The translations under genes and the position numbers were made by a program. A DNA stretch of 64,000 nt, taken from the NCBI RefSeq assembly GCF_001424945.1, contig NZ_LMCW01000004.1:1-64000 (forward strand), read 5' to 3'. The stretch comes from Rhizobium sp. Root1203. Lineage in GTDB: Bacteria; Pseudomonadota; Alphaproteobacteria; Rhizobiales; Rhizobiaceae. This document shows positions 36,317 through 42,916 of the stretch, piece after piece. Each line of letters starts with the position of its first letter. The stretch's first letter is position 1. The notes under the pieces are model-generated. The model was not told the origin of the DNA. It saw nothing but the letters and a program-made list of their open reading frames with translations, and searched no databases.

Positions 36317-37399
36317 ATGCCGATCCTGACCCGCCATTTGCGCCTTTCTCTCATCGCGACCGCCACGATTGTGGCAGCGCTTGCGCATAACGCATCGGCG
36401 CAAACGGTCGATAATGTCGTCACGCGTCCACTCGCCGGAGCGCCAGAAGCGCTCAAGTCGGGACGCCCTCAGACGGACGGTGCCGAACCATCGGCAGGTG
36501 TCGGCGTCTTTGAACGGATGGGTGCGAAGCTGCCCGACCTGCCTGCCGAGAAGGACTACAAGGGACCGGTCGACCAGGCCTATGGCGCCTACCAGCGCGG
36601 CTACTATCTGACGGCGATGGATATGGCATTGCCGCGTGCGCAGCTGGGCGACCCGGCGGCACAGACTCTCGTTGCCGAAATGCTTGCGTCCGGCCTTGGC
36701 GTCAAGCGCGATCCCAAGAATGCCGCCTTCTGGTACGGCAAGGCGGCGGAAGGCGGCGACGCGGCTGCCATGTTCAAGTACTCCCTGATCCTGATCGAGG
36801 GCAGGCTCGTCAAACGCGACAAGGCCAAGGCGGACGAGTACATGCGGAAGTCGGCCGATGCCGGCAATTCGTCGGCGCAGTTCAACTGGGCGCAGATCCT
36901 GACGGCTGACAATCCGGGCGACAAGGGATTGAAGCTGGCGCTGCCTTACTATGAAAAGTCCGCCGAGCAGGGGGTCGCCGACGCGCAATATGCCGTGGCC
37001 GAGATCTATTCGGCGCTTCCCGATCTGCCGGCTGAGAAAAAGCAGCTGGCGCGAGAGTGGATGGCGCGCGCCGCGCATGCTGGATTCGACACTGCTCAGG
37101 TCGATCTCGGTGTCTGGTTCGTCAACGGCACGAACGGCCCGCGCGATTTCGTCAGAGGTTTCCAATGGCTGCGCATAGCTGCCAACAGCGGCAACGTGGT
37201 GGCGCAGAACAAGCTGGCGCACCTCTACATCAATGCGCTCGGCACCAAGCCGGACCCGATCGAGGCCGCGAAATGGTATGTGCTGTCGCGCCGCGCCGGT
37301 CTACCGGATCCGGCGCTCGAGGATTTCTATCTCGGCATCGATGAACAACAGCAGAAGGCGGCAATCGATGCCGCCAACAAGTTCCGCCGGACGCGCTAG
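36317..37399 (+). CDS. Exported Sel1-repeat protein
   Basis: 360 residues with a signal peptide (LSLIATATIVAALAHNASAQ) and then several Sel1-like repeats with the AAxxGxxxAQ pattern, such as AAFWYGKAAEGGDAAAMFKY, DEYMRKSADAGNSSAQFNWA, LPYYEKSAEQGVADAQYAVA and FQWLRIAANSGNVVAQNKLA. These alpha-solenoids mediate protein contacts, often in cell-envelope or exopolysaccharide regulation. It starts 10 bases after the ThiE-like gene, so the two are probably co-transcribed. Confidence 0.88.
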   Translation: MPILTRHLRLSLIATATIVAALAHNASAQTVDNVVTRPLAGAPEALKSGRPQTDGAEPSAGVGVFERMGAKLPDLPAEKDYKGPVDQAYGAYQRGYYLTAMDMALPRAQLGDPAAQTLVAEMLASGLGVKRDPKNAAFWYGKAAEGGDAAAMFKYSLILIEGRLVKRDKAKADEYMRKSADAGNSSAQFNWAQILTADNPGDKGLKLALPYYEKSAEQGVADAQYAVAEIYSALPDLPAEKKQLAREWMARAAHAGFDTAQVDLGVWFVNGTNGPRDFVRGFQWLRIAANSGNVVAQNKLAHLYINALGTKPDPIEAAKWYVLSRRAGLPDPALEDFYLGIDEQQQKAAIDAANKFRRTR

Positions 37400-37408
37400 T
37401 CCTGGCGC

Positions 37409-39106
37409 TCAGGCCACGGCGCGTGCCGTTTTCACCGGCGCCGCCGTTTGGATTGCGGGAACGATGTCGCGGTGGACGGTTCGTTCCTGCGCCAGGGTGT
37501 AGAGCTTGAAGATCCTGCGATCGAGCGGCGCGACGATGTCGGCGAGATCGGAAATGTCGGCAATCTGCGCGCCGGCCATGTCTTCCAGCATGTCGGCACA
37601 GCCCGCGAGTGCGTCGCCGACGTCGCGCTGGATATCCAGCTTGCCGATCAGCAGGCCGATCTTTCCGGCCACCTCGCGGCCGTGCTCCGACAGAACCTTC
37701 AGTTCATTCCCGATGGTATCGGCCGTGGCCCTGATGTCCGCGACAGCGCCGGTGAGGTTCTCGCCGAGTCCGCCGGACATGACGCCTGTCGAAAGCGTCA
37801 CATTGCCGGCTGCGGCTTCCAGGGCCGGAAGACCGTTGACGATCGCGTCGGCGGACTCATCCAGCTTGCCTGCGAAAATGCGCAGCTCGGCGGTGACGAC
37901 GTTGATCGATTTGCCTTCCTCGCCGAGCCGGCTGCAGCGCAGGTTGGTGTTCAGTGCCATATAATGGATGTCGGTCTTGACGGCGCGAATGTTGCCGATC
38001 GATTCCAGCAGCTTGGCAGCGGTGTCGTGCGTCGCCTGACTGACCTGATCGACCTGCTGCGTCGCGCCGTCGACCTGCTGGGCGATCTCGTGGGCGGATG
38101 AAACGCTGGACTCCAAGGTGCCCAAGACGTTGCCTTCGCCTGGCCCCTTCATCTGGTCGCGGAGCCGCAGGATCTCCTGCGCGTCCTGATCGATGCTCGC
38201 GATTGTCGTGATGACGGTCTGCGAATCCCGGCGGAAATCCTTGCACATGTCGCTCATCTGCGCGGCTGTGAGATGATGGATGACGTTTTCCAGTCGCTTG
38301 CGTGCCTCGGCATCGAGGTTGCCGCCTTCCGGGCCGTCCAGAAAATCCTCCAACAGGGCAAACGTGCCTTGGACATGCGCGATGCGCTGGCGGGCGACGT
38401 CGCCGATCTGCAATGCCGTGAGCGTCGAGGCCAATTTGCCCTGGATGCCGCGAGCAATGTCGGAAACGTCGCGGACCATCGTTGCCAGGTGCTGACGGTG
38501 TTCGGCGATCTTGCGGGCTTCGTCCTGCAGGGCGCGTGCCACTTCCGGCACGGTCTCGGCGCAGCTTTTCGCCAGATTGGTGCCCGACGTCAGCGCCATC
38601 TTCACTTTTTTCTCCAGCCTGTCGAGATGGGCGGCGAATCCGTTGACTTCCTCGGTGCCGGAATAGATGCGCTCGAGGATTTCCTGCGCGAAGCCGGCAA
38701 ACTCGGGGAGCCCCGCTCCGGTGATCTTCACGGTCACTGCAAAGGTGCGCAGATAGCGCATCGTCTCCTGCATGTCGGCAACATGCTTGCGCAGCGAATA
38801 GCCGGTGCTGGCAAGCGACATCAGCGCGTCATGGCGCGCTTTCTCGGCACTCGGGAGATCGGCCAGGCTCTTGGCGGTCGAGCGCAGATCCGCGGCGGCG
38901 TCGCTGCCTTCGCCGATGCCCAGCGTGTTCGTGACATTGTCCAGCGAACTCAATAGCCGGTTGAGTCCGTCCGTCACAGAAAGCAGCGCCGTGCTGCCGT
39001 CCTGAAAACGCTGCTCCACCCGGCTGCGTGCAGCCTCCAATGTCTGTGCAATGGCCGATCCGGACGTCTGGAATGCGGTTGGTGCCGATGTCGCCCCGTT
39101 TTTCAC
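37409..39106 (-). CDS. Cytoplasmic chemoreceptor-like coiled-coil protein
   Basis: 565 residues from GTG 39106, five to six bases after AAGGAAA. There is no membrane segment or signal peptide. Long helical heptads run through the protein. A segment at about 430-460 (YMALNTNLRCSRLGEEGKSI, then NVVTAELRIFAGK) resembles the signalling hairpin of methyl-accepting chemotaxis proteins (ALNAAIEAARAGE then FAVVADEVR), but the glutamates used for methylation and CheA contact are largely changed. It may be a soluble receptor, a scaffold or a divergent remnant. No che gene is adjacent; a stator-like gene pair lies 1.3 kb away. Confidence 0.7.
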   Translation of the reverse strand: MKNGATSAPTAFQTSGSAIAQTLEAARSRVEQRFQDGSTALLSVTDGLNRLLSSLDNVTNTLGIGEGSDAAADLRSTAKSLADLPSAEKARHDALMSLASTGYSLRKHVADMQETMRYLRTFAVTVKITGAGLPEFAGFAQEILERIYSGTEEVNGFAAHLDRLEKKVKMALTSGTNLAKSCAETVPEVARALQDEARKIAEHRQHLATMVRDVSDIARGIQGKLASTLTALQIGDVARQRIAHVQGTFALLEDFLDGPEGGNLDAEARKRLENVIHHLTAAQMSDMCKDFRRDSQTVITTIASIDQDAQEILRLRDQMKGPGEGNVLGTLESSVSSAHEIAQQVDGATQQVDQVSQATHDTAAKLLESIGNIRAVKTDIHYMALNTNLRCSRLGEEGKSINVVTAELRIFAGKLDESADAIVNGLPALEAAAGNVTLSTGVMSGGLGENLTGAVADIRATADTIGNELKVLSEHGREVAGKIGLLIGKLDIQRDVGDALAGCADMLEDMAGAQIADISDLADIVAPLDRRIFKLYTLAQERTVHRDIVPAIQTAAPVKTARAVA

Positions 39107-39149
39107 GTTATTTCCTTTGTTTATAACATTGGCAGTTTCGGCTCTCGTT

Positions 39150-39452
39150 TTAGGGCGGCGTTGGAAACGACAGGTAAACGCGGACAGACTCGCCAATGTT
39201 GTCCTTAACGGAGCATGAAATTCCGAGCTCCGTCTGCGATATCGGCTTGTTGAGCAGGACGCGGCTCGATACAACTTTTGCGGGGCAGAGTTCAGGGAGA
39301 CTGGGATCGCCGCAATCGTATTTGGCGGCAGTTGTGACGAAGGTCGGCTTGGCATGCATAACCGTGACAGGAGCGACTTTGTCGCGGTCATCTCCCTGAC
39401 CTGCGGCAGCGCTCTTGAAATTTCCCTGATTTTGTGGTCTTGAAGCCGCCAA
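39150..39452 (-). CDS. Small protein of unknown function, possibly PilZ-like
   Basis: Up to 100 residues; the first codon is TTG and the true start may be the ATG at 39359. The composition (TFVTTAAKYDCGDPSLPELC, then AKVVSSRVLLNKPISQTELG, ending ESVRVYLSF) is protein-like. The last part recalls the closing strands of PilZ domains, but the RxxxR motif for cyclic di-GMP is absent. A competing frame in the same DNA gives an Arg/Ser-rich product and is less likely. Low confidence. Confidence 0.4.
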   Translation of the reverse strand: MAASRPQNQGNFKSAAAGQGDDRDKVAPVTVMHAKPTFVTTAAKYDCGDPSLPELCPAKVVSSRVLLNKPISQTELGISCSVKDNIGESVRVYLSFPTPP

Positions 39453-39542: not shown

Positions 39543-40343
39543 ATGGCCCGTTCAGCTCTTCTCAATGTCATGGTTCAGGCTGCCATCAAGGCAGGAAAAT
39601 CGCTGGGGCGTGATTTCGGCGAAGTGCAGAACCTGCAGGTTTCCGTCAAGGGACCGGGCGATTTCGTCTCCAATGCCGATCGCAAGGCCGAGAAAATCGT
39701 CAAGGACGAGCTTCTGAAGGCACGTCCGACCTACGGCTTCCTCGGCGAGGAAGGCGAAGAGATCAAGGGCACCGATGGCGCGCATCGCTGGATCGTCGAC
39801 CCGCTCGACGGCACGACGAACTTCCTGCACGGCATTCCGCAGTTTGCGGTCTCGATCGCGCTTGAGCGCAACAACGAGATCGTCGCCGGCGTCGTGTTCA
39901 ACCCGGCCACCGACGAACTCTACACCGCCGAGCGCGGCGGCGGCGCTTTTCTCAACGACCGCCGTCTGCGCGTCGGGGCGCGTCGCGTTCTCTCGGATTC
40001 CGTGGTCGCCTGCGGCGTGCCGCATCTCGGGCGCGGCAATCACGGAAAGTTCCTCGTCGAGCTTCGCCACGTCATGGGTGAAGTGGCGGGCATTCGCCGC
40101 ATGGGCGCGGCGTCTCTGGACCTGGCTTACGTCGCTGCCGGCCGGTTCGACGGCTTCTGGGAAACGGGGCTCTCTGCCTGGGATATCGCTGCCGGCATCC
40201 TGCTGATCCGCGAAGCCGGCGGCTATGTGTCCGATTGGGATGGCGGCACCTCCATCCTCGAAACCGGCGGCGTCGTTGCCGGCAATGAGTACATTCAGAA
40301 GGCATTGCTGGAAGTGGCGAAACGCCCGGTTCCCAGCCGCTAA
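39543..40343 (+). CDS. suhB: Inositol monophosphatase family protein
   Basis: 266 residues. The metal-binding motifs are complete: GEEGEE (about 69-74), WIVDPLDGTTNFLHGI, and WETGLSAWDIAAG. It hydrolyses inositol-1-phosphate or related sugar phosphates; the SuhB type may also act in rRNA processing. Single gene, divergent from the small protein at 39150. Confidence 0.93.
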   Translation: MARSALLNVMVQAAIKAGKSLGRDFGEVQNLQVSVKGPGDFVSNADRKAEKIVKDELLKARPTYGFLGEEGEEIKGTDGAHRWIVDPLDGTTNFLHGIPQFAVSIALERNNEIVAGVVFNPATDELYTAERGGGAFLNDRRLRVGARRVLSDSVVACGVPHLGRGNHGKFLVELRHVMGEVAGIRRMGAASLDLAYVAAGRFDGFWETGLSAWDIAAGILLIREAGGYVSDWDGGTSILETGGVVAGNEYIQKALLEVAKRPVPSR

Positions 40344-40419: not shown

Positions 40420-41544
40420 ATGAAGCCGGAGGCTGCGGAATCTATGGAAAACGTGAATGTGGCGGAGTTCGGCTCGACCGAAAAACCCACGGGCAACTAT
40501 ACTTACAAACTCTCCAGTCCGATGCCGTTCCTGTGGACGATGGTCATGTTCCTGGTCATCGTCGGATTTATCGCCGCGATCCTGTTCCGGCAGGCACAGA
40601 CCGCCTTCATGCACAATCCGGGCCTCAACGGCCTTATTCTCGGCGTCCTCGGCGTCGGTATCATTCTCGTCTTCACGCATGTGCTGGCGCTTCGCCCCGA
40701 AGTGCGCTGGTTCAATTCCTTCCGCGCCGCAGGCAGCGCCGACAAGGTCAGTCGCGATCCCAAGCTGCTGGCGCCGATGCGCACCCTGCTCGGCAGCCGC
40801 AAGGCATCTGCCGGGCTTTCGACCGCGGCGTTCCGGTCCATCCTGGATTCGATCGCCAACCGGCTCGATGAATCGCGCGATGTCTCGCGCTACCTCATCG
40901 GACTCCTGGTGTTCCTCGGCCTGCTCGGCACGTTTTGGGGTCTCATCGGCACGATCAGCTCGATCAGCACAGTCATTCAGTCGCTCGATGCCGGTACAAA
41001 TGGCTCCTCCGATGTGCTCAGCGCCTTGAAGGAAGGACTGTCGACTCCGCTATCCGGCATGGGGCAGGCATTCTCGTCCTCGCTGCTCGGCCTTTCCGGC
41101 TCGCTTATTCTTGGCTTTCTCGATCTGCAGGCCGGCCGCGCCCAGAATCGCTTCTACGTTGAACTGGAGAACTGGCTCTCGTCGGTCACCGATCTCGGTT
41201 CCGATACGTCGGTCCCGGCAATCGGCTCAGGCTCCGGCATTTCGCCTGAAGAAATCCGTGCGCTCTCCGACTATCTGCGCAAGTCCGCGGAAGACGGCGG
41301 GGCGGGCAGCCAGCGGTCGGTGGCGGCCATGGCAAACCTTGCCGAGGGCATTCAGGGTCTCGTCAAGAACATGCGCAACGAACAGCAGATGCTGCGCGAC
41401 TGGATCGAAGCGCAGCAGGACGAGGCCAAGGCAATGCGTCGCACGCTCGACCGGCTTGCCGAGCGGGTCGGATCGCAGGAACGGCAAGCATCGGCCGAAC
41501 GCAGCCAACGCGTGCCGCAGACCGAGAAGAGCGAGGGCAAGTAA
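40420..41544 (+). CDS. MotA/ExbB-like stator subunit, non-flagellar
   Basis: 374 residues. Four hydrophobic segments: about 36-58 (FLWTMVMFLVIVGFIAAILF), 69-91 (LILGVLGVGIILVFTHVLAL), 160-183 (YLIGLLVFLGLLGTFWGLIG) and 215-236 (GQAFSSSLLGLSGSLILGFL). The third holds the GTFWGLIGT motif seen in MotA/TolQ/ExbB pores. A long coiled-coil tail (about 275-374) follows. No flagellar genes are near. The next gene begins three bases after this one ends and encodes a MotB-like partner, so together they should form an ion-driven motor or force-transducing complex in the inner membrane. Confidence 0.82.
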   Translation: MKPEAAESMENVNVAEFGSTEKPTGNYTYKLSSPMPFLWTMVMFLVIVGFIAAILFRQAQTAFMHNPGLNGLILGVLGVGIILVFTHVLALRPEVRWFNSFRAAGSADKVSRDPKLLAPMRTLLGSRKASAGLSTAAFRSILDSIANRLDESRDVSRYLIGLLVFLGLLGTFWGLIGTISSISTVIQSLDAGTNGSSDVLSALKEGLSTPLSGMGQAFSSSLLGLSGSLILGFLDLQAGRAQNRFYVELENWLSSVTDLGSDTSVPAIGSGSGISPEEIRALSDYLRKSAEDGGAGSQRSVAAMANLAEGIQGLVKNMRNEQQMLRDWIEAQQDEAKAMRRTLDRLAERVGSQERQASAERSQRVPQTEKSEGK

Positions 41545-41547
41545 GCC

Positions 41548-42579
41548 ATGGCTCTTGGCCGCAACCGTCGCCGCGAACGCGCGGTGGACTATTGGCCGGG
41601 TTTCGTCGACGCCCTGTCGACGCTCCTGATCGCCGTCATGTTCCTGCTCACGGTCTTCGTTGTCGGGCAGTTCATCCTCAGCCGAGAGATTACCGGTCGC
41701 GACGAGGTGCTGACGCGACTGAACAGCCAGATCAACGAACTGACGCAGCTCCTTGCGCTCGAGAAGGGAAGCAAGCAGGACCTTGAGGACAGCGTCGCCA
41801 ACCTGCAGGCGTCGCTGGCGTCCGCCGAAAGCGAACGCTCCCGCCTGCAATCGCTTCTGTCCGCCGGATCGGGCGGCCAGGATCTGGCACAGCAGCGGAT
41901 CGGCAGCCTGTCGAAGGAACTCGACGAGCAGAAACAGACGAGCGAGCGGGCGATGAGCCAGGTCGAACTGCTGAACCAGCAGATTGCCGCCCTGCGCAGC
42001 CAGATCGCCGCGATCGAAGTCGCTCTCCAGGCCTCGGAGCAGAAGGATCAGACGTCGCAGACGAAGATCGCCGATCTGGGTCGGCGTCTCAACGTCGCGC
42101 TGGCGCAGCGGGTGCAGGAGCTGAACCGCTATCGTTCGGACTTCTTCGGAAGGCTGCGCGAGATCCTCTCCGACCGCGAAAACATTCGCATCGTCGGCGA
42201 CCGGTTCGTCTTCCAGTCCGAAGTGCTGTTCCCATCCGGCGGGGCTGATCTCAATCCGGACGGGCAAACCGAGATGGCGAAGCTCGCCGCCGCTCTTCTC
42301 GACGTTGCCAAGGAAATCCCGCCGGAAATCAACTGGGTGCTCCGCGTCGACGGCCATACCGACAACGTGCCGCTCGCCGGAACCGGGAAATTTTCTGACA
42401 ACTGGCAGCTTTCGTCGGCTCGCGCGATCTCGGTGGTGAAGTTCCTGATTTCTCAGGGCGTGCCTGCCGATCGTCTGGTGGCTGCCGGTTTCGGCGAGTT
42501 TCAGCCGATCGCGCCGGGCGAGACGCCCGAGGCACGTGCAACGAACCGGCGTATCGAACTCAAGCTGACCGAGAAGTGA
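41548..42579 (+). CDS. MotB/OmpA-like stator subunit, non-flagellar
   Basis: 343 residues. A single membrane helix (VDALSTLLIAVMFLLTVFVV at 19-38) carries Asp20, at the position of the ion-binding Asp of MotB. Then comes a long coiled coil (about 45-190; far longer than in MotB) and an OmpA-like peptidoglycan-binding domain (VDGHTDNVPL, NWQLSSARA, RATNRRIEL). The geometry suggests a complex anchored to the cell wall across a large periplasmic gap. It pairs with the gene just upstream. Confidence 0.85.
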   Translation: MALGRNRRRERAVDYWPGFVDALSTLLIAVMFLLTVFVVGQFILSREITGRDEVLTRLNSQINELTQLLALEKGSKQDLEDSVANLQASLASAESERSRLQSLLSAGSGGQDLAQQRIGSLSKELDEQKQTSERAMSQVELLNQQIAALRSQIAAIEVALQASEQKDQTSQTKIADLGRRLNVALAQRVQELNRYRSDFFGRLREILSDRENIRIVGDRFVFQSEVLFPSGGADLNPDGQTEMAKLAAALLDVAKEIPPEINWVLRVDGHTDNVPLAGTGKFSDNWQLSSARAISVVKFLISQGVPADRLVAAGFGEFQPIAPGETPEARATNRRIELKLTEK

Positions 42580-42696: not shown

Positions 42697-42719
42697 AGGC
42701 GGCGCTCGAGGCGCCGCCT
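42697..42719. terminator. Bidirectional hairpin between the stator pair and the DUF1508 gene
   Basis: AGGCGGCGC and GCGCCGCCT form a nine-base perfect stem with a five-base loop, in the convergent gap between genes at 42579 and 42728. A short ATCCTTTTC follows on the plus side. Confidence 0.6.
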
Positions 42720-42727
42720 GATCCTTT

Positions 42728-42916
42728 TCAGGAGGATGCCTTCGTCGTGTCGTCGACTTCTGCACCGGGAGCGTTCTTCTTGATGGATTCGATTGCGCTC
42801 AGAGCCGATGCCTTGGCCTTGTAGCCTTCGGAGCTGAACATCGTTTCGCCGTTCGAGGCTTTGAAACGGAATCGGAACTCGCTTGCCTTGTCCTTATAAA
42901 CTTCGAACTTATACAT
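42728..42916 (-). CDS. DUF1508 (YegP-like) small protein
   Basis: 62 residues: YKFEVYKDKASEFRFRFKAS, NGETMFSSEGYKAKASALSA, IESIKKNAP. One copy of the DUF1508 repeat (members have one or two). It is a small beta-alpha protein of unknown function, often stress-linked. Standalone gene between convergent and divergent neighbours. Confidence 0.9.
   Translation of the reverse strand: MYKFEVYKDKASEFRFRFKASNGETMFSSEGYKAKASALSAIESIKKNAPGAEVDDTTKASS

Follow-up and report, generated by a model that had tools for sequence, protein, structure and literature searches.

An alphaproteobacterial stator-like gene pair with an OmpA-type anchor and a helical linker of nearly fixed length

The closest described counterparts of the gene pair considered here are the stators of the flagellar, TolQR/ExbBD and Zorya types. 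According to the available text of a 2025 survey (PMC12505986), flagellar MotA possesses a large torque-generating interface, with 4-5 short helices between its second and third transmembrane helices (TM2 and TM3); non-flagellar B subunits typically have no plug, no linker and no OmpA homology, the linker being regarded as a flagellar innovation; and the generic ion transporters (GIT) have a B subunit devoid of OmpA homology and of an extended linker. ZorAB is described, in the accessible part of PMC11890865, as a 5:2 motor with a wall-binding B subunit and a cytoplasmic tail on the A subunit. Here, we analyze two adjacent genes in a 64,000-nt stretch of DNA of Rhizobium sp. Root1203 (contig NZ_LMCW01000004.1, positions 1 to 64,000; hereafter, the window), namely, an upstream open reading frame (ORF), A, and a downstream ORF, B, which make up a stator-like pair that is neither flagellar nor Tol and is carried by most of the Alphaproteobacteria examined. 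Throughout, the order stands for Hyphomicrobiales and the class for Alphaproteobacteria.

A non-flagellar, non-Tol stator-like pair

The two genes lie on the same strand (Table 1) and are separated by the three bases claimed in the original prediction, which was made from the sequence alone and envisaged A as a four-helix ExbB/MotA-like pore. The latter claim is borne out as well: A contains LGLLGTFWGLIGT, with the TM3 motif LGLLGTFWGL, and its AlphaFold2 (AF2) model shows helices at residues 35-54, 56-63, 67-104, 135-188 and 196-263, that is, four membrane-size helical stretches, of which hydropathy by itself marks only the first three. An additional C-terminal helix (residues 297-363) follows, and the 3.5-residue hydrophobic moment of residues 297-355 exceeds that of all 2000 shuffles. 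The match of A to PF01618 (MotA_ExbB) is borderline, 21.7 bits by hmmscan, just under the cut-off of 22.9 bits, and 24.3 bits in the genome search; there is no NCBIfam match to A at E 0.001. An alternative start at M9 (40444) is equally plausible as that at 40420.

Comparison of the A model by VIA-align gave Z scores of 11.9 for ExbB, 11.6 for TolQ, 10.6 for ZorA and 9.3 for MotA, with family members occupying ranks 1-18, and TolQ and ExbB also came out on top in Foldseek. These fold searches were preferred to a profile search of the PDB with the whole A alignment, which retrieved mostly coiled-coil and other helical chains. Among three outside profiles compared with A by hhalign, DUF802 was the closest (E 3e-11), followed by TolQ (2.9e-5) and MotA (0.0044). 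In the profile alignment with TolQ (probability 74%), T171 and S221 of A correspond to T169 and T202 of the genome's own TolQ; we take these two residues of A to be equivalent to the polar ring known from TolQ and ExbB.

B is a full-length member of the NCBIfam family PRK09039, 'peptidoglycan -binding protein' (NF006544, cut-off 362 bits), the match spanning residues 1-343 of 343. It has a single hydrophobic stretch by hydropathy (residues 16-48), which contains the motif WPGFVDA; thus, the predicted ion-binding Asp does reside in the only membrane helix of B, as originally claimed, and only its number has to be corrected, to residue 21, with Met as 1, from residue 20. In the AF2 model of B (predicted local distance difference test score, pLDDT, 71; predicted template modelling score, pTM, 0.43), two helices, one of residues 15-105 and the other of residues 111-208, are followed by an OmpA fold that, in a structure search with this model, resembles MotB and OmpA-type domains. 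The long helical linker that had been foreseen is, accordingly, present, being of about 160 residues rather than 140 and broken at residues 106-110, and the OmpA domain foreseen at its end is well supported by Pfam (cut-off 27.2 bits). Apart from OmpA, the Pfam matches of B are limited to a weak leucine-repeat model, with no TolR/ExbD domain. D272 and R292 of the OmpA domain, presumably the wall-binding pair of such domains, are invariant in both alignments of B (30/30 and 32/32 rows).

Table 1. Features of the locus in window coordinates (A2 to A5, alignments described in the text)
Feature	Position	Strand	Basis or remark
Sel1-repeat protein, signal-peptide-like N-terminus, probable RgsF ortholog	36317..37399	+	PF08238; likely start 36317, ORF tool 36173
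imp, inositol monophosphatase family	39543..40343	+	PF00459; 76 bp upstream of A
A, MotA/TolQ/ExbB-type pore protein, 374 aa	40420..41544	+	ORF; borderline PF01618; fold nearest ExbB/TolQ, then ZorA, MotA
Codon T171 of A, predicted polar ring, TM3	40930..40932	+	T in 34/34 (A2) and 32/32 (A4) rows
Codon S221 of A, predicted polar ring, TM4	41080..41082	+	S in 34/34 (A2) and 32/32 (A4) rows
Heptad-like helix at the C-terminus of A (residues 297-363), presumably cytoplasmic	41308..41508	+	AF2 helix; hydrophobic moment
B, MotB-like protein, 343 aa, NCBIfam PRK09039	41548..42579	+	NF006544, 699 bits
Codon D21 of B, predicted ion-binding Asp (WPGFVDA)	41608..41610	+	D in 30/30 (A3) and 32/32 (A5) rows
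Helical periplasmic linker of B, residues 46-208	41683..42171	+	AF2 helices; spacing measured
OmpA domain of B, peptidoglycan-binding type	42226..42549	+	PF00691, residues 227-334, 63.8 bits vs 27.2
Terminator-like stem 3' of B	42697..42719	+	10 pairs, 8 G-C

The pair can be told apart from the flagellar and Tol stators of the same genome. PF01618 has three matches there, namely, a TolQ-type protein at C4:95715, a flagellar MotA-type protein at C1:131075, and A itself. The C1 MotA gene adjoins ORFs that we take to be FliM-like and FlgF-like, and the sole match to MotB_plug (PF13677) in the genome is at C1:159582, B having none. The C4 TolQ gene is followed by a TolR-like ORF, and an OmpA match falls in a 197-codon, Pal-sized frame at C4:99426; these tol genes (C4:95715-99692) lie on the same contig as the pair, about 53 kb beyond it. 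Inside the window, the genome searches with PF01618, MotB_plug and OmpA match this pair only, in agreement with the claim that no flagellar, Tol or Ton genes are near, with the scan covering part of the window ORFs. TM2 and TM3 of A are joined by a stretch of some 30 residues (105-134) that contains a single short helix (residues 118-125) and has pLDDT of 59-69 over much of its length, so that no large torque-generating interface of the flagellar type is seen in the AF2 model. In a tree of 66 A-type rows, a branch with support of 100/97 divides the TolQ-like and MotA-like rows from the A family, which shares its side with the DUF802 proteins and one further group; this tree includes no true ZorA, its long branches may join falsely, and it leaves the A family unresolved from the DUF802 group. 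For 28 of the 30 TolQ/MotA-like loci a row was available, and the sequences were aligned after trimming to a length of about 330 residues, or 480 in the DUF802 group. Thus, the original assignment of the pair holds in the form of a non-flagellar, non-Tol stator-like pair, and the outcome that would have refuted it, identity with the flagellar or Tol stators of this organism, was not observed.

Distribution, invariant residues and the length of the linker

Of 100 relatives, 97 have the gene for A (91 of the 92 high-quality genomes), as do 190 of 289 genomes of the class, some of them of only 0.7-0.9 Mb. Across the phylum, 105 of 299 genomes have a match at E 0.001, the weaker matches including many that probably belong to other families, and, among the genomes listed, nine of family f54, rated 100% complete, are free of A. 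B directly follows A in all 45 fetched loci, with a gap of no more than 154 bases in the frames read, and stands beside A in all 80 named loci (a clean gap in 70, overlapping or partial matches in 10); of the two genomes of 0.7-0.9 Mb that were checked, L208 has B beside A.

Two sets of 20 loci, one from the order and one from other orders, were chosen by hand from hit lists, with no random draw. Alignments A2 (A proteins, 34 rows) and A3 (B proteins, 30 rows) comprise the window and, respectively, 33 and 29 of 44 loci, the A rows of L052, L057 and L058 having been excluded owing to a stop inside the frame; alignments A4 (A) and A5 (B) comprise the window and 31 of the 80 named loci, i.e. 32 rows each. 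The Asp of B is readable in 79 of the 80 named loci, the remaining one being a run of N at this place. Given the relatives across the class and the invariance of the key residues in the aligned rows (Table 1), the pair is no chance finding.

The length of the B linker is nearly fixed within the order. The spacing between the membrane helix and the OmpA domain could be measured in 76 of the 80 named loci, L158 being masked and L160, L161 and L168 carrying WPAFVD, which falls outside the pattern used; in all but one of these 76 (75 loci) it equals 169 residues. Alignment A3 includes 18 rows from the order, of which 15 have this same spacing and the other three have 168, 171 and 320 residues, whereas all 30 rows of this alignment span 165 to 320 residues and the total length of B in the 44 loci ranges from 338 to 728 residues. 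The longest linkers, as single straight helices, would be wider than the usual periplasm, which suggests that they must fold back.

At the C-terminus of A, an extra tail with a motif of the LRN-D type is seen in 9 of the 34 rows of alignment A2 (e.g. L061-L064, L066 and L070), none of them from Hyphomicrobiales, and this motif does not strictly co-vary with the upstream third gene described below.

Gene neighbourhood and the probable rgsF gene

Among the 80 named loci, imp is found near the pair in 77, the Sel1 gene in 67 and thiE in 64. Within 9 kb of A, 12 of the 20 order loci have efp, 15 have imp and 10 have thiE, the corresponding figures for the 20 loci of other orders being 14, 16 and 11; the wider ancestral order seems to have been thiE - Sel1 - efp - imp - third gene - A - B. 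The third gene lies directly upstream of A, on the same strand, in 14 of the 20 loci of other orders; its product starts with a stretch resembling a signal peptide, continues with a linker rich in Pro and Ala and finishes in an OmpA-like end, with PF00691 above the cut-off in the two proteins scanned. In the seven of the 14 proteins that were aligned (alignment A1), this end keeps the RR.SL.RAL.VR stretch and is free of the GHTD motif. None of the 20 order loci has a third gene next to A, a generic OmpA hit in L046 being the sole exception. The third-gene profile, which found nothing in the window's genome, gave a strong match in 5 of 8 class genomes searched.

Several other features surround the pair. 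Between the Sel1 gene and imp, on the opposite strand (37409-39391), lies a gene for a 660-aa protein with a sub-threshold match to MCP signalling, a similar protein being present in only 2 of the 80 named loci. Just 3' of B, at about 42728-42916 on the minus strand, there is a small ORF, presumably YegP-like, that is matched in 14 of the 80. The terminator-like stem behind B carries little weight since 5 such sites were found against 3.5 expected by chance. In L207 (L207:42-11687), a distantly related pair, with B before A, has RTX repeats, HlyD and an ABC exporter to one side of it, and PilZ and efp to the opposite side, an arrangement that we take to resemble a SiiAB-type secretion stator.

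The Sel1 neighbour is of particular interest for the function of the pair. In Sinorhizobium meliloti Ak57, the gene order is thiE, sel1, imp, A, B, and the Sel1 gene beside the pair is the only one annotated as such between tkt2 and the gene for RgsC, which served as anchors for a count of locus tags: tkt2 is SMc03978 (transketolase; PMC9611204, available text) and RgsC is SMc04010. The available text of PMC7327166 assigns an M15 domain to RgsC, and the M15 peptidase gene of Ak57 matches PF05951. With a transposase kept out of the count, this interval holds 31 listed genes for 33 tags, so that two genes must be unlisted. The tags leave out one number between thiE and arsR, and we place the second unlisted gene between pgk and fba, at a gap of 764 bases; their tags, which we take to be SMc03981 and SMc03983, call for an unlisted gene between them. 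By this count, the Sel1 gene is probably SMc03995, A is probably SMc03993 and B is probably SMc03992. The Sel1 gene has five Sel1 stretches; RgsF is described, in the source text available, with six Sel1 repeats, and an rgsF knock-out did not grow (PMC5929573, accessible part). From the gene count and the Sel1 repeats, it appears probable, albeit not proven, that the Sel1 neighbour is RgsF, which is essential for polar growth in Sinorhizobium.

Two other candidates were set aside. RgsF as a TPR gene beside rpsU was rejected: the two S21 genes of Ak57 are far from the pair, and no match to Sel1 is seen in the TPR gene that adjoins one of the two, unlike in the gene at this locus (a search of the fetched loci for the S21 pattern, run without a positive control, gave no match). 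The Rhizobium leguminosarum gene RL0936, described as a TPR gene in the available text of PMC5118466, was dropped, since the tags of its neighbours were not found and its identity with the Sel1 neighbour was not shown. A Sel1 search of the window's own genome yielded three proteins, including the one in Table 1, with the proviso that weaker Sel1 proteins may escape it; the other two are presumably ExoR and PodJ.

In S. meliloti Ak57, candidates for rgsB and rgsC (DUF1036 and Peptidase_M15_2; L255:41956-46009) are located about 11-15 kb from the pair, so that three rgs genes may cluster with it. Elsewhere in the genome of the window, a 2088-aa frame with repeated helical matches (G000:C12:237913-242469) probably encodes the polar growth ring protein RgsE/GPR, the size of which, as given in the accessible part of PMC7327166, agrees with this frame.

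Possible function and comparison with known systems

We lean, if only slightly, toward the possibility that the pair is a proton-driven 5:2 motor that works on, or senses, the wall during envelope growth; that it is a motor seems likely, and the role in envelope growth is our best guess. Under this scenario, five A subunits would form a ring with two B helices sitting inside, and ions, most likely protons, would pass between D21 of B and T171/S221 of A, thereby turning or shifting A against B. The OmpA domain at the end of the linker would hold B to the peptidoglycan, and the output would be mechanical work on the cell wall, or a reading of its tension, during envelope growth; a pull on the wall or the outer membrane, as originally suggested, may be involved. 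As its periplasmic partner, the motor would have the Sel1 protein, which is probably RgsF, in Hyphomicrobiales, but the secreted proline-rich OmpA-like protein in many other orders. The original description of a machine of unknown purpose stands insofar as the role is still a guess, and has to be amended insofar as the genes are already annotated and widely conserved and their neighbourhood points to envelope growth.

An unlikely alternative is that B feels wall damage, caused by phage or stress, and that the A ring with its C-terminal helix signals to the cytoplasm, in which case the pair would be a housekeeping cousin of ZorAB and no force generator. Indeed, the PADLOC models ZorA3 and ZorB3 match A (8.7e-14) and B (1.8e-27), the nearest of three outside profiles, DUF802, comes from proteins with a very long tail encoded beside an OmpA protein, and a fragment from a DNA-binding screen with ChvI lies inside SMc03993 (PMC3687685, available text), i.e. 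inside A by gene count. However, the NCBIfam ZorA models do not match A, the PADLOC match of the A family in class genomes covers TM3-TM4 only in most rows among the matches listed, the tail of A is short in the order, no ZorC, ZorD or ZorE was matched among the 10 neighbouring proteins scanned (part of the window ORFs), and the widespread, usually single-copy distribution is unlike that of a defence island. A search of the own genome with NF033914 (ZorA) gave no match, the control also matching nowhere. Membership in Zorya on the strength of PADLOC was, therefore, rejected, the curated ZorA models being unmatched and no Zorya partner being seen among the 10 neighbours; ZorAB, as a 5:2 motor with a wall-binding B and a tailed A, is, nevertheless, a good mechanical model.

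It can also be envisaged that the pair is a second machine of the Tol-Pal kind, which would transmit force to the outer membrane via the secreted proline-rich OmpA-like protein (and its substitutes) and aid constriction or outer-membrane tethering. The frequent position of the third gene next to A in other orders, the signal-peptide-like start, Pro/Ala linker and OmpA end of its product, and the proximity of the A fold to TolQ/ExbB are in line with this possibility; yet A and B persist in the order loci, where no third gene adjoins A (save for the generic hit in L046), and in the window's own genome, where none was found, the OmpA end of the aligned third proteins is without GHTD, and the genome also has a Tol system, which makes this a quite improbable explanation. 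SiiAB is an accessory stator of type I secretion, and the setting of the L207 pair, with PilZ, an ABC exporter, HlyD and RTX repeats as its neighbours, could hint at a similar accessory role in secretion or adhesin release. We give this idea hardly any credence: L207 is a remote relative (32% identity), the scanned window proteins near the pair show no match to RTX or HlyD, and the named loci share imp, Sel1 and thiE instead.

Several observations speak against the preferred scenario of a wall-directed motor. On the side of structure, the AF2 model of A has pLDDT of only 72 (pTM 0.52), an unrelated helical protein reaches a VIA-align Z of 10.4, so that a helical bundle may score this high by chance, Foldseek with A returned no match under E 0.001, the MotA-like profile matches A poorly (E 0.0044, probability 8%), and the heptad signal of the linker is weak (p 0.03 and 0.05). 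As for the distribution, A is missing in 99 of the 289 class genomes and in G452, a 1.5-Mb genome from the same family as the window and with a completeness rating of 100%, and thus is not indispensable; no B was detected beside A in L209 (0.7 Mb), and the reduced order genome L043 (1.4 Mb) has a B linker of 320 residues. The gene order is circumstantial, with Sel1 within 9 kb of A in 10 of the 20 order loci and 3 of the 20 loci of other orders, and the third gene was not found by profile search in the window's genome. The assignment of RgsF needs both unlisted genes, and it conflicts with the available text of PMC9611204, where SMc03994 is called ribosomal protein S21; the partners that the accessible part of PMC7327166 names do not include A or B. 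Finally, full-text searches of the literature turned up no study of the pair and no functional data on A or B, and a term search of the available text of PMC9275681, PMC10470753, PMC9812332, PMC2241609 and PMC9731502 found nothing on the pair.

A more far-reaching proposal, which we consider speculative and rather doubtful, is that, beside Tol and the flagellum, Alphaproteobacteria inherited a third ion-driven machine of the envelope, which has the pair at its core and couples proton flow to wall growth via the near-constant coil, with RgsF involved in polar growers and the proline-rich OmpA-like protein acting as a transmitter in many other orders. Should the role in envelope growth be true, the class, to which Rhizobium, Agrobacterium, Brucella and Caulobacter belong, would own a wall-coupled motor that is already annotated.

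Comparison with known systems puts the pair into perspective. Like flagellar MotAB, it has a B protein with an Asp in a single helix and a wall anchor of the OmpA type, but it differs in having no room for a large torque-generating interface and no MotB plug match, and the MotA and MotB of this genome are separate. With TolQR/ExbBD it shares the pore fold and the polar residues of A, whereas its B protein has an OmpA domain and a coil in place of the TolR/ExbD domain, the TolQR of the genome being separate as well. The likeness to ZorAB consists in the fold of A and in the C-terminal helix as a counterpart of the cytoplasmic tail, as opposed to the failure of A to match the curated ZorA models, the lack of ZorC/D/E in the 10 neighbours and the wide distribution in the class. 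The DUF802 and OmpA pairs of other Pseudomonadota (L196-L202, of which six of seven proteins form alignment A8), the nearest to A among the three profiles compared, have the same layout, an A-type gene adjoining an OmpA-type gene in 7 of 7 cases. They are distinguished by an A protein of 675-1074 aa with a long tail (DUF802 domain in the three scanned) and by a B protein of 214-227 aa (one ORF of 444) without the long coil (PRK09040 in the two scanned). These pairs look like a second little-studied stator family, for which only a 2005 domain survey turned up in the literature on DUF802.

The B protein is also at variance with the definition of GIT, having both an OmpA domain and a helical linker, and, more generally, this non-flagellar, widespread family with a long linker and an OmpA domain misfits the statement on non-flagellar B subunits in the available text of PMC12505986, which bears on the origin of the flagellar stator. 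The pair as such is annotated in a Sinorhizobium record, precisely as PRK09039 and 'MotA/TolQ/ExbB proton channel family protein', and membership in PRK09039 was thus known; that label is a name alone, with the linker length and the third gene outside it. Taken together, the membership of B in a named family is nothing out of the ordinary, and the pair makes an unusual stator, neither flagellar nor Tol, that combines an OmpA anchor with a near-constant coil in its order; to this picture the present analysis adds the near-fixed length of the linker, the upstream third gene in other orders and the probable rgsF neighbour.

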